A DNA stretch of 64,000 bases. It comes from Burkholderia sp. WP9. GTDB taxonomy: Bacteria > Pseudomonadota > Gammaproteobacteria > Burkholderiales > Burkholderiaceae. Shown piece by piece: positions 9,025 to 23,151 of this stretch; within the stretch, counting starts at the first letter, position 1; each line of letters opens with the position of its first letter. The notes under the pieces are model-generated. The model saw nothing but the letters and a program-made list of their open reading frames with translations, had not been told where the DNA came from and did no database searches. The position numbers were made by a program, and so were the translations under genes. The stretch covers positions 1,178,001-1,242,000 of the forward strand of contig NZ_FNTG01000001.1 of NCBI RefSeq assembly GCF_900104795.1. The letters run 5' to 3'.

Positions 9025-9795
9025 TCAACGCGCGAGCCAGCCGCCGTCCACCGCCAGTGTATGCCCGTGCACATAGTCCGAAGCGGATGACGCGAGGAAC
9101 ACGACCGGGCCCGCCAGGTCTTCCGGGGTGCCCCAACGGGCGGCCGGAATGCGGCCGAGAATCTCGTCGTTGCGCTGCGCATCGTCGCGCAAGGCCGCCG
9201 TGTTCGCAGTCGCCATGTAGCCTGGCGCGATCGCATTCACATTGATGCCTTGCGCCGCCCATTCGTTCGCGAGCAACCGCGTGAGCCCGAGCACGCCGCT
9301 TTTCGATGCCGTATAGGAGGCCACCCGTATGCCGCCCTGAAACGACAGCATCGACGCGACATTGATGATCTTGCCACCGCTTCGCTGCTTGACGAACTGC
9401 CGCGCGGCGGCCTGCGAGAGAAAGAACAGGCTCTTCAGATTGACGTCCACGACCGCGTCCCAGTCGGCTTCGGTGAAATCGAGCGCGTTCTCGCGGCGGA
9501 TGAGGCCCGCGTTGTTCACCAGCACGTCGATGCGGCCGAAAGCCTCGACCGCGGCGCGCACGATGTCCTCGACCGGCGCGATCGAGCCGAGATCGGCGCG
9601 CACGTCCGCGAAGCGTCGGCCGGTTGCGGCCACGCGCGCGGGCGTGTCGCCGGCGTCGGCCCGGCTCACGCCGACAATGTCGCAGCCGGCGTTTGCCAGC
9701 GCGAGCGCCATGGCCGCGCCAAGGCCCGTGTTGCTGCCGGTGACGATGGCGACGCGGCCGGTGAGATCAAAGGTGTTCACGGTATTCAAGCCCAT
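9025..9795 (-). CDS. kduD: 2-dehydro-3-deoxy-D-gluconate 5-dehydrogenase
   Basis: 256-residue classical short-chain dehydrogenase. It reduces 2,5-diketo-3-deoxygluconate to 2-keto-3-deoxygluconate in uronate/pectin catabolism. Visible: the cofactor motif TGSNTGLG near residue 17, NNAGL, the catalytic Ser in NVASMLSFQGG, and the YTASK Tyr-Lys pair; the C-terminus GHTLAVDGGWLAR is typical of KduD. The identification rests on these plus kduI 88 bp upstream on the same strand. The start chosen is ATG at 9795; GTG at 9780 is also possible, and neither has an ideal ribosome site. Confidence 0.9.
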   Translation of the reverse strand: MGLNTVNTFDLTGRVAIVTGSNTGLGAAMALALANAGCDIVGVSRADAGDTPARVAATGRRFADVRADLGSIAPVEDIVRAAVEAFGRIDVLVNNAGLIRRENALDFTEADWDAVVDVNLKSLFFLSQAAARQFVKQRSGGKIINVASMLSFQGGIRVASYTASKSGVLGLTRLLANEWAAQGINVNAIAPGYMATANTAALRDDAQRNDEILGRIPAARWGTPEDLAGPVVFLASSASDYVHGHTLAVDGGWLAR

Positions 9796-9883
9796 GTCGT
9801 GCGCCGGGAGTTCCTGACGCGAGAGAAGCAGTGAAGCGAGCAGCAAAACAAGCGGTTGAAAAGCGGGCGAAGAAAGCGGCCCG

Positions 9884-10720
9884 TCAACGCAAGTCCCCAA
9901 CGGCGATGTGATCCATGTCGCTGAACACCTGGTTTTCTCCGACCATGCCCCAGATGAACGTGTACGCCTGCGTGCCGACGCCGGAGTGAATCGACCAGCT
10001 CGGCGAAATCACCGCCTGCTCGTTGTGCACGAGAATGTGCCGCGTCTCGTTCGGCTCGCCCATCATGTGAAAGACGGCGGCGTCGGCGGCGACGTTGAAA
10101 TAGAAATACACCTCCATGCGGCGTTCATGCGTATGGCACGGCATGGTGTTCCACAGGCTGCCCGGTTCGAGCTTCGTCATGCCCATGGACAGCTGGCAGG
10201 TGGGCAGCACTTCGGGAACGATGAACTTGTAGATGGTGCGGCGGTTGCTCGTGGCGGGGTCGCCGAGCGTTTGCGGCGAGGCTTGCGCCAGCGTTATCGT
10301 GCGGGTCGGATACGACGTGTGCGCGGGGGCGCAGTTCAGGTAGAACTTCGCGGGGCGCGTGGCGTTGTCGCTGCCGAAGGCGATGGCCTGCGCGCCTTTG
10401 CCGATGTAGATCGCCTCTTCATTGCGCACCGTATGGCGCGTGCCGTCCACATCGACCCAGCCGTCGCCGCCGATGTTGATCGCGCCGAGTTCGCGCCGCT
10501 CCAGCAGATAACTCACGCCGATTGCCTTGCCGAGCGAGCCGGGCACTTCGACCGCTCGCGCCACCGGCGACACGCCGCCGACGATGATCCGGTCGATATG
10601 GCTATAGGTGAGTTTCAACGCATCGCGCTCGAACACCTGATCGACCAGAAACGCCTGGCGCAGCCCTGCGGTGTCGAGCGTCTTCGCGTATTCGCTGTTG
10701 ATGGCCTGTCTCACTTCCAT
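9884..10720 (-). CDS. kduI: 5-keto-4-deoxyuronate isomerase (DKI isomerase)
   Basis: 278-residue cupin-type isomerase turning 4-deoxy-L-threo-5-hexosulose uronate into 2,5-diketo-3-deoxygluconate, one step before KduD. The family N-terminus [20 protein letters not shown] is present, as is the Zn-binding cluster [16 protein letters not shown] (two His and a Glu) and the later His in [15 protein letters not shown]. The start follows GCGGAGAAAGCACC. It is first in a leftward kduI-kduD pair and divergent from kdgT, so one intergenic region controls breakdown and uptake. Confidence 0.93.
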
Positions 10721-11023
10721 GGTGCTTTCTCCGCTCGGTTGGCGCGCCTTGCCGTCTCTCCAGGCAGGCGCCGTTCTGGGCTCGACTGTAGCGCAGAAAT
10801 GCAGTCCCGGAACAGTGGTCCGAAAATAGTGCAATGCGTCACCATGACTGGCAAGGGTTTCAGAAGACGCACGGGTAAACGATAAACGCAAATTTCGATA
10901 GAAACGGAACGGCGTTCCTGAGGCGGTGCTATATTGCGCCGAAAGGGAGCAGCCCGGCTAAGAACGGGACATTACCCCGGGTGATCCACCCGATAACTGG
11001 ACGCAAAAGTCCACGGAGGAGGC
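10721..11023. promoter_or_regulatory. Divergent kduI/kdgT promoter region with two candidate operators
   Basis: About 300 bp between divergent kduI and kdgT with no gene. Two adjacent inverted repeats lie about 105-130 bp before kdgT: TTTC-GATA-GAAA (10893-10904) and GGAAC-GGC-GTTCC (10906-10918). Two dyads side by side between genes of one pathway, next to an IclR-family gene, make good candidate operators for it. The binding protein is inferred, not shown. Confidence 0.45.
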
Positions 11024-12040
11024 ATGAAGCTCAAGAAGGCCATCGACCGCATTCCTGGCGGCCTGATGCTGGTGCCATTGCTGCTCGGCGCCTGCGTCCA
11101 CACGTTTGCGCCGGGCGCGGGCAAGTACTTCGGGTCGTTCACCAATGGGTTGATTACCGGCACCGTGCCGATTCTGGCGGTGTGGTTCTTCTGCATGGGC
11201 GCGACCATCGATCTGCGGGCGACCGGCACCGTGCTGCGTAAATCCGGCACGCTGCTGGTGACGAAAATGATCGTGGCATGGATCGCGACGATCGTCGCCT
11301 CGCACTTCATTCCGATCGACGGCGTCAAGGCGGGGCTCTTCGCCGGACTTTCGGTGCTGGCGATCACGACCTCGATGGACATGACCAACGGCGGTCTCTA
11401 CGCGGCCGTGATGCAGCAATACGGAACCCGGGAAGAGGCGGGCGCGTTCGTGCTGATGTCGGTGGAATCCGGGCCGCTCGTCAGCATGATCATTCTCGGC
11501 GCGACCGGCGTGGCGTTCTTCGAACCGCGCCTGTTCGTCGGCGCGGTGCTGCCGTTTCTGATCGGCTTTGTGCTGGGTAATCTGGATGGCGAATTGCGCG
11601 AATTCTTCGGCCGTTGCGTGCATCCGCTGATCCCGTTTTTCGGCTTTGCGCTCGGTAACGGCATCGACCTCGGCGTGATTGCGAAAAGCGGCGTGCCGGG
11701 AATCGTGCTGGGTCTGGGCGTGATCGTGGTGACCGGTATTCCGCTGATTCTCGCGGACCGCTGGATCGCCGGCGGCAATGGAGCGGCGGGGCTGGCGGCT
11801 TCGTCGACGGCGGGGGCCGCGGTGGCCAATCCGGCGATCATCGGCGAGATGATTCCGAGCTTCAAGCCGCTGGTGCCCGCCGCAACCGCGATGGTGGCGA
11901 CGGCCTGTCTCGTGACGGCGATTCTGGTGCCGATCCTCACGGCGCTGTGGGTGCGCCGGCATCATGCGCGCGACGCGTTGCGCGAGGAGTTCGCGGCGGC
12001 AAGCTCACCGCCGCTCAATGAGCGGGACGTGCATGTGTAG
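11024..12040 (+). CDS. kdgT: 2-keto-3-deoxygluconate permease
   Basis: 338-residue inner-membrane transporter of the KdgT family (proton symport of 2-keto-3-deoxygluconate). About ten hydrophobic segments are visible; recognisable family stretches are the N-terminal [40 protein letters not shown] and the glycine/alanine-rich [19 protein letters not shown]. The start follows ACGGAGGAGGC. It is divergent from kduI-kduD, so uptake and catabolism of deoxyuronates are set together. No kdgK or kdgA is in the window. Confidence 0.93.
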
Positions 12041-12173
12041 GGCGGGGTGAAGCCAGCTCGCTTGCGTTCCTGATAGACGTAAGCGGGGTCAGGCGTCAGC
12101 GGGTCGCGCGATTGCTCTGTGGTTGCTTGCGCTTGCGGGTAGTGGCTGCCGGTTCGCCCGTGCTCATGACAAT

Positions 12174-12204
12174 AAAAAAAGTCCGCGAGCGACGGCTCAC
12201 GGAC
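12174..12204 (-). terminator. Intrinsic terminator of the aldehyde dehydrogenase gene
   Basis: On the leftward strand a 10-bp stem with one mismatch (GTCCGTGAGC / GCTCGCGGAC, 12181-12204, loop CGTC) is followed by a run of seven T (12174-12180). It lies ~60 bp beyond the dehydrogenase stop. A second 7-bp stem AGGCGGC / GCCGCCT (12234-12253) lies just after the stop but lacks a T-run. Confidence 0.85.
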
Positions 12205-12262
12205 CCGGTGCAGTGTAATGAAGCGTTGGCGGAAGGCGGCGAAAATGCCGCCTGCGCGAACC

Positions 12263-13708
12263 TTAGACCGCCATCACAGATACGGCCTTGGTGACCAGGT
12301 AGCCTTCCATCGCTTCCGGGCCGCCTTCTGAACCGTAGCCCGAATCCTTCACGCCGCCGAACGGCATTTCCGGCGACGGCGTAGCCGGCTGGTTGATCCA
12401 CAGCATGCCGACTTCCAGTTGCTGCGACAGCAGATGCACATTGGCGAACGACTTGGTGAACGCGTAGCCGGCGAGACCGTACGGCAGACGGTTGGCTTCG
12501 GCGATCGCTTCTTCCAGTGTGTCGAAGCCGCGGATCGCGGCGATCGGGCCGAACGGCTCGTTGTTGAACACGTCGGCTTCGAGCGACACGTTGGTCAGCA
12601 CGGTCGGTGCGAAGAAGTTGCCTTCCGAGCCTACGCGCTCGCCGCCCGTTTCCACCTTGGCGCCGGTTTTGCGGGCGTCGTCGAGCACCTTGCTCATTGC
12701 CGTCAGACGGCGCGCGTTGGCGAGCGGCCCGAGAGTCGTGCCCTCGGCAAGCCCGTCGCCCAGCTTGAGGCCTTCAGCGTGCTTGACGAGCGCCGCGGCG
12801 AATTCCTCGCGGATGCTGTTGTGCACGAGAAAGCGCGTGGGCGAGATGCATACCTGACCGGCATTGCGAAACTTCGCACCACCTGCGGCCTTCACGGCGA
12901 GCGCCACGTCGGCGTCTTCGGCCACGATGACCGGCGCGTGACCGCCCAATTCCATCGTCGCGCGCTTCATGTGTGCGCCGGCCAACGCCGCCAGTTGCTT
13001 GCCGACCGGCGTCGAGCCGGTGAACGTGACCTTGCGGATCACCGGATGCGGAATCAGGTAGCTGGAGATTTCAGCCGGGTCGCCGAACACGAGGCCGACC
13101 GTACCCGCCGGCACGCCGGCTTCGACGAAGGCCTGCAGCAGCGCTGCCGGCGACGCCGGGGTTTCTTCCGGCGCCTTGACGAGGAACGAGCAGCCGCACG
13201 CGAGCGCGGCGCTCAGCTTGCGCACCACCTGGTTGACCGGGAAATTCCACGGCGTGAACGCCGCCACCGGGCCGATCGGCTCCTTGAGCACGAGTTGCTG
13301 CGCCGCGAGGTTGCGCGACGGCACGATGCGGCCGTAGACACGGCGGCCTTCGTCGGCGAACCATTCGATGATGTCCGCCGCCGCCAGCACTTCGACGCGC
13401 GCTTCGGCGAACGGCTTGCCCTGTTCCTGCGTCATCAGGCGGCCGATATCCGACGCACGCTCGCGCACCAGGGCGGCGGCGCGGCGCATGGTGTTGGCGC
13501 GCTCGTTGGCCGGCACTTTGCGCCAGGCTTCGAAGCCGCGCTGCGCGGCGGCCAGCGCCCGGTCCAGATCGGCAATGCCGGCGTGCGCCACTTTGCCGAT
13601 GGCCTGGCCGGTGGCCGGGTTGATGACGTCGAGGGTCTTGCCGCTGGCGGCGTCGCACCACTCGCCGTTGATCAGAAGTCGGGTATCGGTATAGCTCGAA
13701 TTGGCCAT
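12263..13708 (-). CDS. NAD(P)-dependent aldehyde dehydrogenase (semialdehyde type)
   Basis: 481 residues of the succinate-/2-oxoglutarate-semialdehyde dehydrogenase group. Catalytic Cys lies in [12 protein letters not shown], the general-base Glu in [11 protein letters not shown], the cofactor region in [11 protein letters not shown], and the Asn in [11 protein letters not shown]. The start is the ATG after CAGGAACCCCAGC. Next to kdu/kdgT genes, a 2-oxoglutarate semialdehyde role (last step of the oxidative route from 2-keto-3-deoxygluconate) is attractive, but no dehydratase for that route is present here, so succinate semialdehyde is an equal alternative. Confidence 0.85.
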
Positions 13709-14367: not shown

Positions 14368-14413
14368 GGCCGGTTCGCGCGTGACAGGCGCGCGGCCGGC
14401 CGGTACTTTCCTT
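14368..14413 (+). terminator. Probable terminator after csp
   Basis: GGCCGG-TT-CGCGCG (14368-14381) pairs with CGCGCG-G-CCGGCC (14389-14401) around a 7-nt loop, a very GC-rich interrupted stem, followed by GGTACTTTCCTT. The T-run is imperfect. It would separate csp from the hpnJ promoter whose activator-like box begins at 14411. Confidence 0.55.
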
Positions 14414-14444
14414 AAGGTTTCCTTCAGCTTTGCTCCGTAGTATT
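14411..14444 (+). promoter_or_regulatory. PmrA-box-like promoter of the hpnJ operon
   Basis: Direct half-sites CTTAAG (14411-14416) and CTTCAG (14422-14427) separated by 5 nt, then exactly 10 nt and a -10-like TAGTATT (14438-14444), 92 bp before hpnJ. The half-site pattern matches the PmrA box of enteric bacteria, (C/T)TTAA(G/T)-N5-(C/T)TTAA(G/T). An almost identical 17-mer with the same spacing to a -10 lies at 20489, in front of the second hopanoid operon and the two-component genes. The response regulator at 19711-20370 is the natural candidate to bind it. Confidence 0.75.
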
Positions 14445-14535
14445 TGCGCGATTACCCGCCGCCCGGTGGGCAAAAGTTCCGATTTTTTGTCGTTACTGAA
14501 CAGAAAGCGCCAATACAAGGCTTGCTGGAGCATCC

Positions 14536-15957
14536 ATGAAAACCCTGTTCTTGCAGGCGCCGTCGTACGACGGCTTCGATGGTGGCGCGGGTTCGCGCTA
14601 TCAGGCCAAACGCGAAGTCCGCTCGTTCTGGTATCCGACGTGGCTTGCGCAGCCCGCGGCACTCGTGCCCGATAGCCGCGTGCTCGATGCACCGGCAGAT
14701 GGTCTGTCGGTGGATCAAACGCTCGACATTGCGCAGCAATACGATCTGGTGGTGATCCACACCAGCACGCCGTCCTTTCCGACCGACGCCCTGTTCGCCG
14801 AAGACCTGAAGAAGCGCAAGCCGTCGGTTTTGATCGGCATGGTGGGCGCGAAGGTCGCCGTCGATCCTCACAATTCGCTGGTTGCCACCGAGGCGATCGA
14901 TTTCCTCTGCCGCGAAGAATTCGACTTCACCTGTCAGGAAGTGGCCGAAGGCAAACCGTTCTCGCAGATCAAGGGCCTCAGCTATCGCGCCGCCGACGGT
15001 TCGATCGAGCACAACGAAGCGCGCGCAATCCTCGAAAACATGGACGAGCTGCCGTTCGTGGCGCCCATCTACAAGCGCGATCTGAAGATCGACAACTACT
15101 TCATCGGCTATCTGAAGCATCCGTACGTGTCGATCTACACGGGCCGCGGCTGCCGCTCGAAGTGCACGTTCTGCTTGTGGCCACAAACCGTGGGCGGCCA
15201 CCGCTACCGCACGCGCTCGGTCGAGAATGTGCTGGCCGAAGTGAAGTGGATTCGCGACAACATGCCCGAAGTGAAGGAGATCATGTTCGACGACGACACG
15301 TTCACCGATTTCAAGCCGCGCGTCGAGGAAATCGCCCGCGGTCTTGGGAAACTGGGCGTGACGTGGTCGTGCAACGCGAAGGCGAACGTGCCTTACTCGA
15401 CGCTGAAGATCATGAAGGAAAACGGCCTGCGCCTGCTGCTGGTCGGCTACGAATCCGGCGACGACCAGATTCTGCTGAACATCAAGAAGGGGCTGCGCAC
15501 GGATATCGCGCGCCGTTTCAGCGACGATTGCCGCAAGCTCGGCATCAAGATTCACGGCACTTTCATTCTCGGTCTGCCCGGCGAGACGCAGGACACGATC
15601 CAGAAGACGATCGAATACGCCAAAGAGATCAATCCGCACACGATCCAGGTGTCGCTCGCCGCGCCGTATCCCGGCACCAGGCTCTACAACGAGGCCGTTG
15701 AAAACGGCTGGCTCGAAGAGAACAAGGTGATCAACCTCGTCAGCAAGTCGGGCGTGCAACTCGCGGCGATCGGCTATCCGCATCTATCGCGCGACGAGAT
15801 CTATAACCAGCTCGAACGCTTCTATAAGCATTTCTATTTCCGGCCGTCGAAGATCTGGGAAATCCTGCGCGAGATGCTGACGAGCTGGGACATGATGAAG
15901 CGGCGCTTGCGTGAAGGCGTCGAATTCTTCCGTTTCCTGCGCGCCCGCCAGGCGTGA
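14536..15957 (+). CDS. hpnJ: Hopanoid biosynthesis radical SAM protein HpnJ
   Basis: 473 residues. B12-binding-like N-terminal part (about 1-170), then a radical SAM domain with the cluster Cys206-X3-Cys210-X2-Cys213 in GRGCRSKCTFCLWP, and the SAM-site segments MFDDDTFTDF and YESGDDQILLNIKKG. HpnJ is the enzyme that contracts the glucosamine of bacteriohopanetetrol-glucosamine to the cyclitol ether in Burkholderia. It is first in an operon with an HpnI-like transferase (overlap GTGA), a tiny ORF and hpnL, and has a PmrA-box-like promoter 92 bp upstream. Confidence 0.95.
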   Translation: MKTLFLQAPSYDGFDGGAGSRYQAKREVRSFWYPTWLAQPAALVPDSRVLDAPADGLSVDQTLDIAQQYDLVVIHTSTPSFPTDALFAEDLKKRKPSVLIGMVGAKVAVDPHNSLVATEAIDFLCREEFDFTCQEVAEGKPFSQIKGLSYRAADGSIEHNEARAILENMDELPFVAPIYKRDLKIDNYFIGYLKHPYVSIYTGRGCRSKCTFCLWPQTVGGHRYRTRSVENVLAEVKWIRDNMPEVKEIMFDDDTFTDFKPRVEEIARGLGKLGVTWSCNAKANVPYSTLKIMKENGLRLLLVGYESGDDQILLNIKKGLRTDIARRFSDDCRKLGIKIHGTFILGLPGETQDTIQKTIEYAKEINPHTIQVSLAAPYPGTRLYNEAVENGWLEENKVINLVSKSGVQLAAIGYPHLSRDEIYNQLERFYKHFYFRPSKIWEILREMLTSWDMMKRRLREGVEFFRFLRARQA

Positions 15958-17114
15958 GCGCCGCGCATCTGGCCGCCGTCACGCTCGCCTGCGCGTGCGC
16001 GGCGGGCGCGGTCCTCGGCATCGGCTACACCGCGCTCGCCGGTGTGCTGATCGGACGGTTCTTCAAACGCGCGGTGTCCGAGCCGACCGACTTCGTGCCG
16101 GTTACCATAGTGAAACCGCTGCACGGTAACGAGTGGGCGCTGCTCGACAATCTCTCGAGCTTCTGCCGGCAGAACTATCCGGGGCCCGTGCAGTTTCTGT
16201 TCGGCGTGCACGACTCCGCCGATCCCGCGCTGCAAGCCGTCGACGAATTGCGGCGCCTGCATCCCGAAGCGGACATCACCGTAGTGGCCGATGCGCGCCT
16301 CTATGGGCCGAACCGCAAGATCAGCAACATCCTCAATATGCTGCCGCAAGCGCGGCACGACGTGCTCGTCTTCGCCGACAGCGACGTGAGCGTCGGAGCG
16401 GACTATCTGCGCCACGTGATAGGCGAATTGCAGAAGCCCGGCGTCGGACTCGTCACCTGTGCGTATCGCGGACAGCCCGATCCCGGTTTCTGGCCGCGCC
16501 TGTCGGCCAAGGCGACCAACTATCAGTTCCTGCCAGGCGTCGTGACGGGCCTCGCGCTCGGGCTCGCGCGCCCGTGCTTCGGCCAGACGATCGCGATGCG
16601 GCGCGATACGCTCGACAACATCGGCGGCCTGACGCCGTTCGTGCGGCATCTGGCGGAAGATCACGCAATCGGTGAAGCGGTGCGGCTGACCGGCGAGAAG
16701 GTGGTGATTCCGCCGTTCACCATCTCGCATGCCTGCGTCGAATCGAGCGCGGCACAGTTGATCGAGCACGAGTTGCGCTGGAGCCGCACGATCCGCCGCA
16801 TCGATCCGCTCGGCCATCTCGGCTCGGCACTGGTTCATCCGTTCGCGTTCGCGTTGCTCGCGGTCATCTTCTCGGCGGGCGGCTGGTGGGCGTGGTCGCT
16901 CGCGCTGGCCGCCGTAGGCGCGCGGCTTGCCCTGAAGCTGCTGTCCGATCGCGCGTTGAAGCAGGCGCATCGTGACCTGTGGCTGCTGCCAATATGGGAT
17001 ATCGTATCGTTTGCGATTTTCGTCGCGAGCTTCTGGTCGTCGCGCGTGATCTGGCGAGGCTTCAGCTTCAAGGTGGACGGCGACGGCCTGTTGTCGGCGG
17101 CGCAGGACGAATGA
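15954..17114 (+). CDS. HpnI-like glycosyltransferase (ceramide glucosyltransferase-type)
   Basis: 386-residue membrane-anchored GT2/GT21 transferase with a GTG start overlapping the hpnJ stop. An N-terminal transmembrane helix is followed by PVTIVKPLHGNEWALLDNL, the DxD-type motif FADSDVSVGADYL, the acceptor segment VRHLAEDHAIGE and the RW motif HELRWSRTIRRI, then C-terminal helices. HpnI adds N-acetylglucosamine to bacteriohopanetetrol; a second, better-placed HpnI gene (next to hpnK) starts at 21063. The two differ considerably, so this one may use another sugar or acceptor. The specific role is unsettled. Confidence 0.85.
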   Translation: MSAAHLAAVTLACACAAGAVLGIGYTALAGVLIGRFFKRAVSEPTDFVPVTIVKPLHGNEWALLDNLSSFCRQNYPGPVQFLFGVHDSADPALQAVDELRRLHPEADITVVADARLYGPNRKISNILNMLPQARHDVLVFADSDVSVGADYLRHVIGELQKPGVGLVTCAYRGQPDPGFWPRLSAKATNYQFLPGVVTGLALGLARPCFGQTIAMRRDTLDNIGGLTPFVRHLAEDHAIGEAVRLTGEKVVIPPFTISHACVESSAAQLIEHELRWSRTIRRIDPLGHLGSALVHPFAFALLAVIFSAGGWWAWSLALAAVGARLALKLLSDRALKQAHRDLWLLPIWDIVSFAIFVASFWSSRVIWRGFSFKVDGDGLLSAAQDE

Positions 17115-17218
17115 CGGACGAAGGGCAGCCTGGATCGGCAATGATGAGTCGTATTTTCGAAGCAGCTTTCAAACGCGAAGCAACGCGCCAGAAGCGCGCG
17201 TACGAGGTGGGCGCGTGA
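17111..17218 (+). CDS. Tiny overlapping ORF between the transferase and hpnL
   Basis: 35 codons (MTDEGQPGSAMMSRIFEAAF, then KREATRQKRAYEVGA). The ATG overlaps the upstream transferase stop (ATGA), and its own stop overlaps the hpnL start (TGATG), so it fills the gap between two real genes exactly. The C-terminal half could form an amphipathic basic helix. Perfect coupling at both ends suggests it is translated, either as a small protein or simply to pass ribosomes to hpnL. No homologue is recognised. Confidence 0.5.
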   Translation: MTDEGQPGSAMMSRIFEAAFKREATRQKRAYEVGA

Positions 17219-18213
17219 TGAAACACCTCGGCCGCGTCGCCGCGCTAGTTGGCCTGCTGGTCTCGCTCTGGCTCGTCTGGCAGGATAATCCCGCCGCCGT
17301 GCTCGGCGCGCTGCGCGCGGCCGGCGTGGGACTGCTGCTGGCTGCGCTCGCCCACGTGCTGCCGATGCTCGCCAATGCGTGCGACTGGCGTTCGCTGATT
17401 CGCGGCGCGAACCGTCCGGGCGTGTTCCAGATGCTGCACCTCGTGTGGGTGCGCGAATCGGTCAACAGCATGCTGCCGGTGGCGCGCATCGGCGGCGAAG
17501 TAGTGTCGTTTCGCATGCTCAGGCGTTGGGGCGTGCGGCCGTCCACGGCGGTGGGCAGCATCATCGTCGACATGCAGCTCACTGTGATCAGCCAGCTGCT
17601 CTTCACGATGGTCGGCATCGGCTTCCTGTTCGCGCACGCGCATTCCGACACGCTGCGGCTCGCCGGACAACTGGCATGGGGCGTGGTGGTGCTCACGCCG
17701 CTCCTCGTGCTGTTCTCGCTCGTGCAGCACGCCAGTCCGTTCGAGCGCATCACGCGCACACTCAATCATATGACGAGCGGCAAGCTCGCCGCGCTGGTCG
17801 GACAGTCGGCGCAGATCGATCAGGCCATCAAGCTGATCTGGCGCAGGCGTGGCGTGGTGGTGCGTTATCTGTTTTTCTGGCAACCGTTGCAGTGTTTCCT
17901 CACGTCGCTGGAAATCTGGCTCGCGCTGTACTTTCTCGGCGTGCACGTCACGCTCGTCGAAGCGGTGGTGATCGAATCGCTGATCCAGGCGATCAGCAGC
18001 GCGGCCTTCTTCGTGCCGGGCGGGCTCGGCGTGCAGGAGGGCGGCTTCATTCTGATCGGCGGCGCGCTTGGCCTCGATCCCTCCACCTGTCTCGCGCTGG
18101 CCGGCGCACGGCGCATTCGCGACCTCGTGATGTTCGTGCCGGGGCTGGTTGCGTGGCAGTTCGCGGAGTCGTCGAATCGGGCGCCGCAGCGAGCCTTCGA
18201 GCGCGCACCTTAG
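17218..18213 (+). CDS. hpnL: Hopanoid-associated HpnL-like membrane protein
   Basis: 331 residues, seven or eight hydrophobic helices, of the lysylphosphatidylglycerol synthase/UPF0104 membrane superfamily. Family stretches are visible: RESVNSMLPVARIGGEVVSF and SAAFFVPGGLGVQEGGFILI. HpnL-type proteins accompany hopanoid operons and are thought to move or place hopanoids rather than make them. The start is the ATG overlapping the preceding stop. It is last in the operon and convergent with the sensor kinase gene. Confidence 0.85.
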   Translation: MKHLGRVAALVGLLVSLWLVWQDNPAAVLGALRAAGVGLLLAALAHVLPMLANACDWRSLIRGANRPGVFQMLHLVWVRESVNSMLPVARIGGEVVSFRMLRRWGVRPSTAVGSIIVDMQLTVISQLLFTMVGIGFLFAHAHSDTLRLAGQLAWGVVVLTPLLVLFSLVQHASPFERITRTLNHMTSGKLAALVGQSAQIDQAIKLIWRRRGVVVRYLFFWQPLQCFLTSLEIWLALYFLGVHVTLVEAVVIESLIQAISSAAFFVPGGLGVQEGGFILIGGALGLDPSTCLALAGARRIRDLVMFVPGLVAWQFAESSNRAPQRAFERAP

Positions 18214-18310
18214 CGAGACGAACGGACAGGGCGCGCGGACGGCGTGGCGCGTATAGCGAGCAACTGCGGGTGAGGGGGACGGCGCGCCGTCAGCTCGCGT
18301 CGCGATCTTC

Positions 18311-19714
18311 TCAGCTCATCTGAGCATAGGCGGGAAACGACACCTCGACCGTGAGGCCTCGTTCGCCAATGCCCGCACCCAGACGCAGGCTCGCGCCGAA
18401 GTGCTCCGCGATCCGCGCAACAATCGACAGACCCAGCCCGCTGCCGGTGGCCTGATTGCCGGTCGCGCGAAAGAAACGATTCGTCAGACGGTCGAGATCG
18501 TCGGGCGCGACGCCGGGGCCGTCGTCGCGTACGCTCACCTGCACGCGGTCTTCGGCGTGCTGCACGGCTACTTCTATGTTGCCGCCGGCGCGGCCGTACT
18601 TGATCGCGTTATCGAGCAGATTGTCGAGCAGTATGCCGATCAGCACGGGCTCCGCGTTGATCTCGGCGCGCATGTCGCCCTTGAGCATGACGTGAATGTT
18701 TTTCTGCTGGGCGTTGCGCTCGTTGGCGAGCAGCGCGTCTTTTGCCACCACGGCGGGTTTGAGCGGCGCCGTCGACATGGTTTCGTGCGCGTCCAGACGC
18801 GCGAGCAGCAGCAATTGCTCCGCGAGCCGCGCGCTGCGATCGACGCCTTGCACCACGCGTTCCATTGCCAGCCGTTGCCGCGCTTCGTCCGTTTCGGCCA
18901 GTGCGACCTGTGCCTGCACCTTGATCGCGGCCAGCGGCGTTTTCAGTTCATGAGAGGCGTCGGCGGTGAACGCGCGCTCGCGCTCCAGCGAGTGCAGCAA
19001 ACGCGAGAGCAGCAGATTGATCGCATCGACGAGCGGTCGCACCTCGGTCGGCGCGCGGCCGATATCGACCGGTTCCAGCCGGTTCACGCCGCGCGTACGG
19101 ATCGCACCCGAGAGCACCCGGAGCGGCGCGAGGCTCCAGCCGATGCTGAACCACACCAGCACCGCCAGCACCGGCAGCGCGATCAGCGTGGGGCGGGCGA
19201 TCCGGCTCGCGACGCCGCTCACCAGGTCGCTGCGCGTGTTGGCCGGTTCGAAGACGCGCACGGTGTGGCCGAGCAGCGTGTCGCGCAAGGTGAACGAGTG
19301 ATACATCTGGCCGCCGAGCGTGATGTCCCGCGCGCCGCTCGCGGCCGGCACCGGAAGATCCCATGCGTTGAGCGCGCGCAATTGCGGGCTGCCCGCCAGC
19401 ACTTCGCCGTTCGCGCCGCGCACCTGAAAGAGGGCGTCGCGGGGCAGCGAATCGTCGTCGTCACTGTCGTTGGCGCCGGGATCACCGCCTTTTTCTTCTT
19501 CGCGCACGTCGATGCGCGCGTTGGCGAGCGTGGTCAGATTGCGCTCATCGAGCAGCGCGAGAATCTGCGCGAGTTCGGCGAGCCGCGCCCCTTCCCATTC
19601 GCTCACTTCGCGGACGGCCTGGCGATAGCTCGACACGAGCGCAATGCCCCACATCAGCACGATGCTCGCGAGAACCAGCAGCACGAGCCGCCGGCGGATC
19701 GACGCGCCCATCAT
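18311..19714 (-). CDS. Sensor histidine kinase, QseC/PmrB-like
   Basis: 467-residue inner-membrane kinase. Transmembrane helix 1 at about residues 8-28, a periplasmic domain of ~135 residues with a strikingly acidic patch (REEEKGG... then DSDDDDS at about 70-90), transmembrane helix 2 at about 175-195, a HAMP-like linker, the phospho-acceptor His in ADASHELKTPLAAIK, and the ATPase motifs NLLDNAIKYG, DDGPGV and GSGLGLSIV. Acidic periplasmic residues bind Fe(III)/cations in PmrB, so cation sensing is plausible. The start overlaps the regulator stop (ATGA). It lies between the two hopanoid operons. Confidence 0.92.
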   Translation of the reverse strand: MMGASIRRRLVLLVLASIVLMWGIALVSSYRQAVREVSEWEGARLAELAQILALLDERNLTTLANARIDVREEEKGGDPGANDSDDDDSLPRDALFQVRGANGEVLAGSPQLRALNAWDLPVPAASGARDITLGGQMYHSFTLRDTLLGHTVRVFEPANTRSDLVSGVASRIARPTLIALPVLAVLVWFSIGWSLAPLRVLSGAIRTRGVNRLEPVDIGRAPTEVRPLVDAINLLLSRLLHSLERERAFTADASHELKTPLAAIKVQAQVALAETDEARQRLAMERVVQGVDRSARLAEQLLLLARLDAHETMSTAPLKPAVVAKDALLANERNAQQKNIHVMLKGDMRAEINAEPVLIGILLDNLLDNAIKYGRAGGNIEVAVQHAEDRVQVSVRDDGPGVAPDDLDRLTNRFFRATGNQATGSGLGLSIVARIAEHFGASLRLGAGIGERGLTVEVSFPAYAQMS

Positions 19715-20370
19715 TCTTTCTCCACCACGTAGCCGATATTGCGCACCGTCTTGATCAGCTTCGCGCCGAGCTTCTTGCGCAGATTGGACACGTGCACCTC
19801 GATCGCGTTGCTCTCGATTTCTTCCTGCCAGCCATACAGGCTTTCTTCAAGACGCGAACGCGACTGCGGTATGCCCTGGTTGGTCAGCAACTGCATCAGG
19901 ATGGCCCATTCGCGCGAGGTGAGCGGCACGCGTTTCGCGCCCACTTCGACGGTTTGAGCGGCCGGATTGACCGTCAGGTCCTGATAGCGGATCTGCTCGA
20001 CGCTGCGGCCTTGCGCACGGCGCAGCAGAGCCCGGCAGCGCGCGATCAGCTCGGTCAGGTCGAAAGGCTTGCCGACGTAGTCGTCGGCACCCGCTTCGAG
20101 GCCATCGACCCGGTCGACCACCGTGCCCCGCGCGGTCAACACCAGCACCGGCACGTGCTTGCCCGAATCGCGCAGCCGTTTGAGCAGATCCATGCCCGAT
20201 ACGCGCGGTAACCCGAGATCGAGCACCACCAGCGCGTACGCGGTGGTGTCGAGCGCGAGACCGGCCTTGTGGCCGTCGCGGGCCCAGTCGACCGTGAAGC
20301 CGGCTTGGCGCAGTCCTGCTTCGACACCGCAGCCAATCAGATCGTCGTCTTCTACGAGGAGTACGCGCAT
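19711..20370 (-). CDS. OmpR/PhoB-family response regulator, QseB/PmrA-like
   Basis: 219 residues: receiver domain (acidic pocket Glu8/Asp9, phospho-Asp51 in LDLGLP, Lys in GKPFDL) and a C-terminal winged helix (about 125-217, LTSREWAILMQLLTNQG, SNAIEVHVSNLRKKLG). The start is placed at MRVLLVEDDD, which fits the family; a longer in-frame version is possible. It is promoter-proximal in the operon with the kinase. A PmrA-box-like site 119 bp upstream reads equally well in its direction (CTGAAG-N5-CTTAAG-N10-TATAAA), suggesting autoregulation and control of both hopanoid operons. Confidence 0.93.
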   Translation of the reverse strand: MRVLLVEDDDLIGCGVEAGLRQAGFTVDWARDGHKAGLALDTTAYALVVLDLGLPRVSGMDLLKRLRDSGKHVPVLVLTARGTVVDRVDGLEAGADDYVGKPFDLTELIARCRALLRRAQGRSVEQIRYQDLTVNPAAQTVEVGAKRVPLTSREWAILMQLLTNQGIPQSRSRLEESLYGWQEEIESNAIEVHVSNLRKKLGAKLIKTVRNIGYVVEKE

Positions 20371-20472
20371 GGGTCCATTCATTCCATTCGATGTTTTTTG
20401 CATGGCGGCCGGCAGGTCAAGTCAGGTGTCGAACCGCAGCCCGAAGTTTAACCATGCTGTTCATAACACGCT

Positions 20473-20521
20473 TTATACGCCTTCTTCCTTAAGGTTTCCT
20501 TCAGCTTGACTCGCTACTATC
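20473..20521. promoter_or_regulatory. Bidirectional PmrA-box-like promoter
   Basis: Half-sites CTTAAG (20489-20494) and CTTCAG (20500-20505), 5 nt apart. Rightward, 10 nt separates the second half-site from a -10-like TACTAT (20516-20521). Leftward, the same box reads CTGAAG-N5-CTTAAG and again 10 nt separates it from TATAAA (20478-20473). It therefore sits correctly for both the rightward membrane protein-hpnI-hpnK operon and the leftward regulator-kinase operon. The 17-bp core is identical to that before hpnJ at 14411. Confidence 0.75.
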
Positions 20522-20699: not shown

Positions 20700-21050
20700 A
20701 TGAAGCCAGTCACCCTCGATATGCTGCGCGCCCACCTGCTGGTGGCTTCGCTTACGGCCATGGGCGCGGAGTTGCTCGTGTGCCTCGGGCTGCTGGTGTG
20801 GCCGGTTTCGGAGCACGCCTTCGGTTCCACGCCGTTCCGGCTTTTGGCCGTGGCGGTGATTGTCAGCGGTGTGATCGTCACGCGCCAGTTCGCGCACGCC
20901 GCTTTCGACTTCGCTCTGCAGGGTCATTACGCCACAGGCGCCGGCCGGCCCGCACGGTCTGTCGCGGTCGCCTCGAACTGTCCGCGGCGCTGGCTCGTGA
21001 TTCTTCATCTGCGCCTGACCGGCAGACCGTTCGTGCTCGCCGAGCATTGA
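20700..21050 (+). CDS. Small membrane protein ahead of hpnI
   Basis: 116 residues, starting at the ATG after GAGACCGAGTC. Two hydrophobic helices are clear (about residues 8-35, LLVASLTAMGAELLVCLGLL, and about 42-62, FRLLAVAVIVSGVIVTRQF), with a short basic C-terminal tail. It is not recognised. It ends 12 bp before hpnI and should be the first gene of the PmrA-box-driven operon, with a ~170-nt leader. Its position suggests a part in hopanoid head-group synthesis or placement; this is inference only. Confidence 0.7.
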   Translation: MKPVTLDMLRAHLLVASLTAMGAELLVCLGLLVWPVSEHAFGSTPFRLLAVAVIVSGVIVTRQFAHAAFDFALQGHYATGAGRPARSVAVASNCPRRWLVILHLRLTGRPFVLAEH

Positions 21051-21062
21051 CGGAATGGGACG

Positions 21063-22337
21063 ATGGCGGCGCACGCATTAACAGCATGCCAATGGGTCCT
21101 GCTCGGCGGATGCGTCGGCGCTTCGCTGTACGCGCTGCTGGCGGCGGTTGCGATGCCGTTTTTCGCCTCTCGCCGGCGCGTAGCGGGTAGTCCTGCTCAA
21201 GGCGCTTCGCGCAACTCGCATGCGTTGTATCCCTTCAAACATGTCGGTGTCAGCGTGCTCAAGCCGCTGTGCGGCGCCGAGCCACGGCTCTACGAAAATC
21301 TGCGGACCTTCTGCGAGCAGCGCCATGGATACTTCCAGCTGGTGCTCGGCGTGTCCTCGCCCGACGACCCGGCCATTGCCGTGGTCCGCCGGCTTCAGGC
21401 GGCCTATCCATTGCACGACATCGAACTCGCGATCGATACGCGCGTGCACGGCAGCAATCTCAAGGTCAGCAATCTGATCAACATGGCGGAGCGGGCCCGC
21501 CATGAGGTGATCGTGATCGCCGATAGCGACATTGCCGTCGAAGACCATTATCTAGACAGCGTGGCCGCGCCGCTCGCGGATCCGCGCGTGGGCGTGGTCA
21601 CGTGTCTTTACGTGGCCCAAGGTGTCGGCGGTTTCTGGCCGCGCGTGGGCGCGCTCTTCATCAACGAATGGTTCGCGCCGTCGGTGCGTGTCGCGCACGC
21701 GGCCGGTTCGCGCAGTTTCGGCTTCGGTGCGACGCTCGCTTTGCGGCGCGCGACACTCGAGCGCATCGGCGGTTTCGAGGTGCTGAAAAACTGTCTCGCG
21801 GACGATTACTGGCTGGCCGAACACGTGCGCGCCCTCGGGCTGCAGACCGTACTCTCGCGCGTGATCGTGGCCACCGACGTGATCGAGCCGACGTTCTCCG
21901 CGCTGTGGCAACGCGAAACGCGCTGGCTGCGCACGATCCGCTCGGTGAACCCGCTCGGCTTCGCGTTCCTCTTCATCACCTTTCCCACGCCCTGGCTGCT
22001 GACCGGCGCGTGGCTCACCGCCAGCCTTGCTGCGAATACGTCCCATGCGGCCCACGTGTGGGCCGAACTCACGTGCGCAACCAGCACGACGATCGGCCTC
22101 GCTGCCCGTCTGCTGTTGCATTGGCGCTCCGCGCGTCATGGGCGTACTTTCTGGCGTGATCTGCCGCTCGTGCCCTTGCGCGATGCCTTGCTGGCGTTGC
22201 AGTGGCTGGCGGGCGCGTTCGGCTCGCACGTGGTGTGGCGCGGTGCGCGCGTGCCCGTCGAGACTTCCACGTCGAGGGCGGCACGCGGCGGCGCGATGAA
22301 CGTGATGGATGTCGCGGAGGCGTCCGATGGTCGCTAA
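21063..22337 (+). CDS. hpnI: Bacteriohopanetetrol glucosamine glycosyltransferase HpnI
   Basis: 424-residue membrane GT2/GT21 transferase. N-terminal transmembrane helix, VGVSVLKPLCGAEPRLYENL, DxD region IADSDIAVEDHYLDS, acceptor-site Asp pair in KNCLADDYWLAEHV, RW motif WQRETRWLRTIR, then C-terminal hydrophobic helices. HpnI transfers N-acetylglucosamine to bacteriohopanetetrol. It overlaps hpnK by 11 bp, the arrangement expected for the transferase whose product HpnK deacetylates. It is paralogous to the transferase after hpnJ at 15954. Confidence 0.9.
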   Translation: MAAHALTACQWVLLGGCVGASLYALLAAVAMPFFASRRRVAGSPAQGASRNSHALYPFKHVGVSVLKPLCGAEPRLYENLRTFCEQRHGYFQLVLGVSSPDDPAIAVVRRLQAAYPLHDIELAIDTRVHGSNLKVSNLINMAERARHEVIVIADSDIAVEDHYLDSVAAPLADPRVGVVTCLYVAQGVGGFWPRVGALFINEWFAPSVRVAHAAGSRSFGFGATLALRRATLERIGGFEVLKNCLADDYWLAEHVRALGLQTVLSRVIVATDVIEPTFSALWQRETRWLRTIRSVNPLGFAFLFITFPTPWLLTGAWLTASLAANTSHAAHVWAELTCATSTTIGLAARLLLHWRSARHGRTFWRDLPLVPLRDALLALQWLAGAFGSHVVWRGARVPVETSTSRAARGGAMNVMDVAEASDGR

Positions 22338-23151
22338 GCCGCGCGGACTCATCGTGACCGCCGACGATTTCGGACTGCACGCGCGCGTGAACGAGGCGGT
22401 CGAGCGCGCGCATCGCGACGGCGTGCTCAGCGCCGCGAGCCTGATGGTCGGCGCGCCGGCCGCCGGCGACGCGGTGGCGCGCGCCCGTGCGTTGCCGCAA
22501 CTGCGGGTCGGTTTGCATCTGGTGCTGGCTGACGGCGTCGCGAGCGCGCCGCGCGAGCGGATTGCGGCTTTGGTCGACGAACATGGCCGCTTTGGCAGCA
22601 ACATGGTGTGGGACGGCGTGAGGTTCTTTTTCTTGCCGCACGTGCGCAAGCAGCTTGCGCGGGAAGTTCGCGCGCAGTTCGAGGCCTTCGCGAACACCGG
22701 TCTGACGCTCGATCATGTCAACACCCACAAGCACTTTCATTTGCACCCGACGGTGCTCGGGCTGATTCTGGAAATCGGCCGCGAATACGGAATGAAGGCC
22801 ATGCGCTTGCCGTTCGAAGCGAATGCGCCGCCATGGTTGCGGCCGTGGATCGCGCGGGTCGAGGCGCGTCTGGATCGCGCGGGCATCGCGCATAACGATT
22901 ATGTGGTGGGGATCGCGGATAGCGGGCGGATGGACGAGGCGGCGTGGCTTGCGGCGCTCGCCGATCTGCCGCATGGGGTGGGGGAGATTTATTGCCATCC
23001 GGCGGTGGCGGGCGAGCGGGCGTTGAGCGACGGCATGCGCGATTACCGGCACGAGGCGGAATTGCAAGCGCTGTTGTCGGCGAAGGTTGCCATGGCGATT
23101 CGCGCGGCGGGAGTGCGGGTCGGCGGGTTTGGGGATGTGCTGGCCGGGTAG
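22327..23151 (+). CDS. hpnK: Hopanoid biosynthesis deacetylase HpnK (YdjC-like)
   Basis: 274 residues from the ATG after GCGGAGGCGTCCG, overlapping hpnI. YdjC/ChbG-type metal-dependent deacetylase fold: the N-terminal TADDFGLHARVNEAV carries the Asp pair, THKHFHLHPTV the metal His residues, and EIYCHPA a further His. HpnK removes the acetyl group from N-acetylglucosaminyl-bacteriohopanetetrol, giving the free amine that HpnJ then remodels; the cationic amino hopanoid is relevant to polymyxin resistance. Last gene in its operon. Confidence 0.92.
   Translation: MVAKPRGLIVTADDFGLHARVNEAVERAHRDGVLSAASLMVGAPAAGDAVARARALPQLRVGLHLVLADGVASAPRERIAALVDEHGRFGSNMVWDGVRFFFLPHVRKQLAREVRAQFEAFANTGLTLDHVNTHKHFHLHPTVLGLILEIGREYGMKAMRLPFEANAPPWLRPWIARVEARLDRAGIAHNDYVVGIADSGRMDEAAWLAALADLPHGVGEIYCHPAVAGERALSDGMRDYRHEAELQALLSAKVAMAIRAAGVRVGGFGDVLAG

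Follow-up and report, generated by a model that had tools for sequence, protein, structure and literature searches.

The canonical box of Salmonella PmrA is CTTAAG-N5-NTTAAT (PMC3973317). In KpPmrA the base-reading residues are Asn188, Asn196 and Arg210, and Thr187, Val192 and His195 touch bases as well (PMC4660055). BesRS of Burkholderia thailandensis, a two-component system, has been reported to induce genes that include a hopanoid operon when polymyxin B is present (PMC9426598). Conversion of bacteriohopanetetrol (BHT) into BHT cyclitol ether is reported to require three enzymes, HpnI, HpnK and HpnJ (PMC5462960). A review associates hpnJ with polymyxin resistance in the B. cepacia complex and describes the lipid A aminoarabinose of Burkholderia as constitutive and essential (PMC4244539); there would therefore be room for another lipid to carry an inducible response. 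Here we examine a kinase-regulator pair that lies between two hopanoid (hpn) operons of Burkholderia sp. WP9, in a 64-kb stretch of DNA (NZ_FNTG01000001.1, 1,178,001-1,242,000; hereafter the window, whose numbering is used unless C1, C2 or the like is named), together with a 17-mer shared by both operons. Comparison of genomes strongly supports a link between the pair and the two operons. Very probably, to judge from sequence, the regulator is an activator of the PmrA/QseB type that acts through CTTMAG-N5-CTTCAG on a conditional set of enzymes for the hopanoid head group.

The shared box and its co-occurrence with the kinase

The 17-mer CTTAAGGTTTCCTTCAG stands twice, in identical copies, on the + strand of the window (Table 1). 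An earlier note on this DNA had recognised both copies, and only its coordinate for the second has to be corrected, from 20489 to 20488-20504. As that note had said, each box is followed after exactly 10 nt by a -10-like hexamer, and gene calls and curated models agree that box 1 precedes the hpnJ operon and box 2 an operon made of hpnI, hpnK and the gene of a small protein (MP). With up to 3 mismatches allowed, these two remained the only matches in the window; 100 shuffles gave 0.02 matches on average and never two. A chance origin of the two copies was rejected on the strength of these shuffles and of the reversed-pattern controls given below. The proposed fit to a PmrA box holds for half-site 1 but not for half-site 2, where CTTCAG is one base off the enterobacterial CTTAA(G/T). 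On the reverse strand TATAAA is likewise present as described, at 10 nt from box 2, but only some close relatives have a -10 toward the regulator gene at this place (TATAA(A) at 10 or 11 nt), and autoregulation from the reverse strand would be weakly conserved.

Conservation forms an island around the box. In 22 aligned hpnJ promoters the mean information per base was 1.85 bits in the box, 1.42 in the spacer, 1.38 in the -10 hexamer, and 0.32 and 0.38 in the flanks; the corresponding values for 25 aligned MP promoters were 1.77, 1.21, 1.59, and 0.35 on both sides, the box having served to choose and to align the rows, a procedure that favours its own columns and not the spacer or the -10. All rows were distinct, with no pair above 93% identity, and L160 (same genome as L034) and L023 (same as L108) were left out. 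Half-site 2 reads CTTCAG in 47/47 of these promoters. Upstream of hpnJ a box with at most 2 mismatches was present in 20 of the 27 regions from loci with the regulator; of the seven others, six belong to hpnJ genes inside operons of a divergent group treated below, and one to an additional, canonical hpnJ of L029, a locus that does have a box with 2 mismatches. Where the locus has no regulator, the same box preceded hpnJ in 0 of 65 regions (L075 has 3 mismatches, L076 has 4). Conservation of the box before hpnJ, which the earlier note had named as a check, is thus seen in most of the loci with the regulator.

The sample for the comparison of genomes consisted of 117 genomes of the same genus, the box was searched as CTTMAGRTTTCCTTCAG-N10-TA, and the reversed pattern served as control. 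The box was present in 61 genomes and the control in 0/117. A search with just the 17-mer yielded 117 sites, spread over 62 genomes, and TA follows after 10 nt at 113 of these. Four sites depart from this spacing: G008 has two of them, G059 has one, for which no target is evident, and the last, in G042, lies about 395 bp upstream of an hpnI-hpnL pair that is unlinked. In G008 (L108, on C1) three stops interrupt the kinase gene, N10-TA is gone from both hpn boxes and the hpnK match is partial; the entire system seems to be in decay.

A kinase match at E<=1e-100 was obtained in 78/117 genomes, with a best match of 61-100% identity in 61 and of 48-55% in 17. The genomes with the box and those with a kinase of at least 61% identity are the same set (61 with both, none with the box only, none with the kinase only, 56 with neither), and 50 of the 56 boxless genomes carry hpnJ. 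In a family-wide draw the box occurred in 16/249 genomes, two of them among the 219 from outside the genus, and both of these carry the kinase, at 82% and 63% identity. Fourteen other genomes were searched for the kinase: the single box-positive one has it at 87%, and among the 13 boxless ones two have homologues at 48-53% and 11 gave no match at 1e-90. Within the 9.02-Mb genome of strain WP9 itself, the scan for the 17-mer that the earlier note had suggested placed both exact copies in the window, with three further sites at 1 mismatch and two at 2; across genomes, the box tracks the close kinase (61/61 versus 0/56).

Eleven of the 113 sites lie more than 8 kb from the kinase. Six of them (in the WP9 genome, G006, G008, G036, G085 and G097) precede the gene of a helical protein of about 90 amino acids. 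In G080 an exact box precedes hpnJ-hpnL on C1, and a box with 2 mismatches precedes MP-hpnI2-hpnK, likewise on C1, while the kinase-regulator pair is on C2. In G003 and G076 the box precedes hpnI2-hpnK on a contig other than that of the kinase. The distant site of G029 consists of an hpnJ-type core followed by an undetermined base, apparently an assembly join. The last of the eleven, in G007, is near a second PmrA-like pair treated below. In G080, G003 and G076 the box has thus been kept before relocated hpn operons at a distance from the kinase, which speaks for an action of the regulator on those genes in trans.

Several observations weigh against control of the hopanoid operons by this pair. 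The line at 60% kinase identity was set after the gap between 61% and 55% had been seen; the 61 and the 56 genomes are not independent events, because the 117 genomes are related, and for both reasons a Fisher value computed from these counts is no true probability; and co-inheritance accounts for part of the co-occurrence, because 102 of the 113 sites are within 8 kb of the kinase. The order hpnJ-hpnI1-hpnL also occurs with neither a regulator in the locus nor a box of at most 2 mismatches (L044, L049, L053, L054 and L076), and likewise in L025, where the contig ends near hpnL; 17-mers with 3-4 mismatches stand before MP-hpnJ or hpnJ in L054, L075 and L076. G004 and G079 have a box with 2 mismatches before the gene of the 90-amino-acid protein and no kinase match at 1e-100. 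G031, which belongs to the 61, has its sole box before an MP-like open reading frame (ORF) and a cytochrome b561 gene, and no hpn gene was found in the 17 kb inspected. An exact box in G007 (C12) adjoins a second PmrA-like pair, as does a relative of the box in the WP9 genome (C2:90806). Finally, L168 contains a distant version of the pair with neither the cytochrome b561 gene nor the PAP2 gene found beside it elsewhere, and with no box within 4 mismatches. On balance, the earlier proposal that this system controls the hopanoid operons stands as a comparative link, through co-occurrence, the island of conservation and the relocated operons; a PmrA-like response, with polymyxin, Fe(III) or low pH as putative signals, is a hypothesis.

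The regulator, its likely mode of action and competing explanations

The regulator aligns to PmrA without gaps, and its closest solved structures by sequence are those of BasR/PmrA, 8jo2 and 4s04. N188, V192, N196 and R210 are kept in 30/30 of the regulator rows listed, among which L023 and L108 probably represent one genome, and Ser occupies positions 187 and 195. In a tree of 41 regulators, from which hits shorter than 190 residues or with stops had been excluded, the neighbouring regulator (20 rows) and the regulator of the second pair, RR2 (10 rows), form separate groups, each with an ultrafast bootstrap of 100; the long and unsure branches of E. coli BasR and QseB lie outside both clades. 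The designation "QseBC/PmrAB-like" given in the earlier note is apt as a likeness: the regulator is below both curated cut-offs and at most a candidate orthologue of PmrA or QseB.

PmrB-type kinases have a periplasmic ExxE iron motif. Among 20 kinase rows of at least 74% identity, taken from an alignment of 33 kinases, 15 have an EVxE-type stretch close to the first helix, which is disrupted in the other five (L024, L031, L034, L106 and L159); an acidic stretch of the REEEKGG...DDDD type is better kept. Such a stretch would suit the sensing of cations or of cationic peptides, which is a guess from sequence.

In the mechanism that we favour, the pair at 18311-20370 would govern a small regulon through CTTMAG-N5-CTTCAG, presumably in response to envelope stress. 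The phosphorylated regulator would bind as a head-to-tail dimer on the two 11-bp-phased half-sites, take the place of a -35 element and recruit sigma-70 polymerase to the -10 hexamer 10 nt downstream, in a class II activation like that of PmrA and PhoB. This type of activation seems the most likely one because the -35 region lies under the box and no good -35 hexamer remains. The operons hpnJ-hpnI-hpnL and MP-hpnI-hpnK would thereby be switched on as a second, conditional enzyme set, which would glycosylate, deacetylate and ring-contract the bacteriohopanetetrol head group and so change the lipid; scaffold synthesis by hpnH, encoded elsewhere in the genome, would be left untouched, and the 90-amino-acid helical protein would be switched on as well.

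A bound protein that overlies the -35 region could also block polymerase. QseB-type regulators can both activate and repress, and the model scores do not decide between PmrA and QseB, so that the neighbouring regulator might repress from the box, or act both ways, and keep the hopanoid genes off until a signal arrives. We regard this as unlikely: with a 17-nt spacer the -35 hexamer would fall within the box and read AGGTTT, which matches TTGACA poorly, so that an activator seems needed, and the fixed spacing of 10 nt (113/117 sites) fits class II activation. It is less probable still that the boxes are read chiefly by the second pair, RR2/HK2, and that the neighbouring pair does other work. 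RR2 does score 251.7 with the PmrA model, above the neighbouring regulator, to which it is 48% identical; several relatives have it close to the hpn locus; and, besides the exact box beside RR2 in G007, the site beside HK2 in the WP9 genome is box-like with 1 mismatch. Its presence, however, does not track the box: RR2 (E<=1e-95) occurs in 106/117 genomes, 55 with the box and 51 without it, while six genomes have the box only and five have neither. It belongs to a clade of its own and has a related box with TTAAG-type half-sites. Upstream of RR2, the three best sites of each of 14 loci are mostly (C/G)TTAAG-type repeats, none with CTTCAG as second half, as against 47/47 in the hpnJ and MP promoters, a contrast that is exaggerated by the different reference words, the RR2 sites having been found with CTTAAG halves and the others with the window 17-mer. 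The recognition helices differ too, with SN at 195/196 in the neighbouring regulator and HS in RR2 (Ser187, His195 and Ser196 in the ten rows listed), a change which may be what altered the box. Control of the hpn boxes by RR2 was set aside given its distinct upstream sites and its lack of co-occurrence with the strict hpn box.

That the 17-mer is a constitutive promoter element, or the remnant of a promoter duplication, with no regulator at all, is very hard to maintain. The copies of hpnI and of hpnJ are paralogues, and a duplication that included the upstream DNA is conceivable; outside a 33-bp core, however, the sequence differs between both promoters and between species, unrelated genes, too, have the box or a variant of it upstream (that of the 90-amino-acid protein and, in divergent relatives, those of cytochrome b561 and PAP2), and the strict box with N10-TA is absent from all 56 genomes without a close kinase. 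The constitutive promoter was accordingly set aside in view of the co-occurrence with the kinase and the box-limited conservation.

Genes of the locus, further sites and distant relatives

Table 1. Features of the hopanoid locus, by window position, and the second regulator-kinase pair of the same genome
Feature	Position	Strand	Basis or remark
Box 1, CTTAAG-GTTTC-CTTCAG, 11-bp-phased direct repeat, before hpnJ	14411..14427	+	window search, promoter alignment
-10-like TAGTAT, 10 nt past box 1	14438..14443	+	
hpnJ, radical SAM protein	14536..15957	+	TIGR03471 840 bits, cut-off 577.6
hpnI copy 1, glycosyltransferase	15954..17114	+	TIGR03472 498 bits, cut-off 310
hpnL, flippase-like membrane protein	17215..18213	+	TIGR03476 341 bits, cut-off 195.65; PF03706
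Sensor histidine kinase, QseC/PmrB-like, conserved acidic periplasmic stretch	18311..19714	-	QseC model 252.5 (475 needed), PmrB model 167.3 (314 needed)
OmpR-family response regulator, 219 aa from ATG at 20370	19711..20370	-	PmrA model 228.8 (330 needed), QseB model 226 (345 needed)
Candidate -10 (TATAAA) facing the regulator gene, at 10 nt from box 2	20472..20477	-	
Box 2, same 17-mer, divergent region between regulator and MP-hpnI-hpnK operon	20488..20504	+	window search, promoter alignment
-10-like TACTAT, 10 nt past box 2	20515..20520	+	
MP, 116 aa, small, probably membrane-bound	20700..21050	+	two long helices; conserved CP...LVILHLRLTG end
hpnI copy 2, glycosyltransferase	21063..22337	+	TIGR03472 463 bits, cut-off 310
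hpnK, YdjC-type deacetylase	22309..23151	+	TIGR03473 404 bits, cut-off 232.6; PF04794
Second PmrA-like pair RR2/HK2 (L010)	C2:88623-90640		own genome

HpnI, HpnK and HpnJ are all present at the locus, each above its curated cut-off, and the two HpnI copies share 36% identity. MP has no Pfam family above cut-off, and its structure model has a pLDDT of 77.5. The kinase-regulator pair carries PF00072 and PF00486 (receiver and winged helix) and PF00512 and PF02518 (HisKA and HATPase), all above cut-off. No HpnO-type amination gene is among the genes identified in the two hpn operons, and the earlier suggestion that hopanoid amination is under this control finds no support there; a free amine would arise through deacetylation by HpnK.

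The whole genome contains four copies of hpnJ. One of them, on C2, sits in the canonical hpnI-J-K-L order, and neither a box nor the kinase-regulator pair was found in the 18 kb inspected around this cluster. The hpnJ of the boxless canonical cluster (C2:2105468-2106886) is 98% identical to that of the window, the best matches in other genomes being 96% identical, and gene conversion between the paralogues of this genome is possible. A single hpnH scores above cut-off, at C2:1869907, far from all five sites with at most 1 mismatch. In L054 (Paraburkholderia sp. DHOC27, 9430-13700), MP, hpnJ, hpnI and hpnL follow one another downstream of a diverged box, CTTAAGGTTCTCATCAG, and no regulator was found in that locus.

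At up to 3 mismatches the WP9 genome contains 17 matches to the box, and 9 to the reversed control; therefore just the sites with 0-1 mismatch carry much meaning. Three of these lie outside the window. The site at C2:1030881 (1 mismatch, N10-TAAATT) precedes an ORF for 88 amino acids that is this genome's member of the 90-amino-acid helical family. At C2:77808 (1 mismatch, N10-TAGATT) the ORF behind the site also encodes 88 amino acids, is 36% identical to MP over 77 residues and may be either a gene or a remnant. The site at C2:90806 (1 mismatch) is near-palindromic, lies between HK2 and a PF01663 gene and has no TA at 10 nt on the matched strand. The surrounding segment (L010 2623-6651, C2:88623-92651) holds RR2/HK2 with TTAAG-type tandem sites upstream, next to this gene, which is phosphodiesterase/sulfatase-like.

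The 90-amino-acid helical protein (L005/L011 in the WP9 genome; L119-L148) has a match in 72 genomes. Of the 30 loci listed, 16 have a box with at most 2 mismatches upstream on the right strand, five more have one with 3-4 mismatches, and nine have none upstream; at least two of the 16, those of G004 and G079, are in genomes that gave no kinase match. Some loci carry variants of the CRTAAG-N5-CTTAAG type. The family has no Pfam match, and its all-helical model (pLDDT 82.5) has no match in the PDB at E<=0.001. The variant box CTTAAGTTTTTCTTCAG is common to the small-protein loci of G004, G079 and G111 (L128, L133 and L134), which possibly represent a mobile segment.

In the divergent group, with a kinase at 53-55% identity, the pair adjoins cytochrome b561-MP-hpnI-J-K-L in 8/8 loci, and variant boxes with 3-4 mismatches, each ending in CTTCAG, precede cytochrome b561 and MP; in L166 both have 4. 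Among six more distant loci (kinase 48-52%), five have cytochrome b561 beside the pair, and in three of those five (L114, L167 and L170) a PAP2 phosphatase gene stands behind CTTAATCTTTTCTTCAG-N10-TARAGT; the stretches of all six are devoid of hpn genes. The PAP2 sites suggest an older envelope-lipid regulon. A plausible order of events, with the tree unrooted, is that a regulon of envelope genes came first and that hpn genes were captured later.

Comparison with known two-component systems

The regulation of hopanoids in bacteria is poorly described within the literature searched. The regulon proposed here is compact and testable, has defined sites, is present in 61/117 sampled species of the genus and concerns head-group tailoring and not the scaffold. 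It suggests that hopanoids may be re-dressed on demand, as other bacteria re-dress their lipopolysaccharide against polymyxins, and the paralogous pair, whose box is distinct, lends itself to a natural test of what keeps related regulators separate. A bolder version, which we put forward tentatively and judge somewhat less probable than its opposite, is that the pair has been re-wired to a dedicated hopanoid-tailoring response. Cationic hopanoid head groups would there replace an inducible modification of lipid A where aminoarabinose is constitutive and essential, MP and the 90-amino-acid protein, both undescribed, would be effectors, and the change in the recognition helix would insulate the system from its PmrA-like paralogue.

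With PmrAB/BasRS the system shares an OmpR-family regulator, a CTTAAG-N5 tandem box and the residues Asn188, Asn196 and Arg210 of KpPmrA; the known targets of PmrA, too, act on an outer-envelope lipid once its core has been made. It differs in that half-site 2 is CTTCAG, that residues 187 and 195 are Ser instead of Thr and His, that the targets are hopanoid head-group genes, that the kinase fits the QseC model better and has an ExxE-like stretch in 15 of the 20 close rows, and that no curated cut-off is reached (228.8 versus 330 for the regulator). As to QseBC, the QseC model is the best one for the kinase and the QseB model nearly equals that of PmrA for the regulator, whereas the scores are far under the cut-offs (226 versus 345 and 252.5 versus 475) and E. 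coli QseB lies outside the clade.

A further parallel is BesRS, also a two-component system tied to a hopanoid operon, and the existence of that report means that two-component control of hopanoid genes is already in print for this family. The BesRS regulator has been aligned with ParR, RstA and CpxR and has a cis element of the TGCG/TGCA type, and the hopanoid operon was found by RNA-seq, its site needing verification according to the authors; the parts of that article consulted contain no PmrA-type box, nor the words "PmrA" and "QseB" (PMC9426598). A search of the literature by title and abstract, with most subscription papers outside its reach, gave no PmrA/QseB-type regulator tied to hopanoid genes. 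The remark in the earlier note that no such link had been described is therefore too broad for the kind of control, for which BesRS is a precedent, and holds within the literature searched for this pair, this box and these targets.

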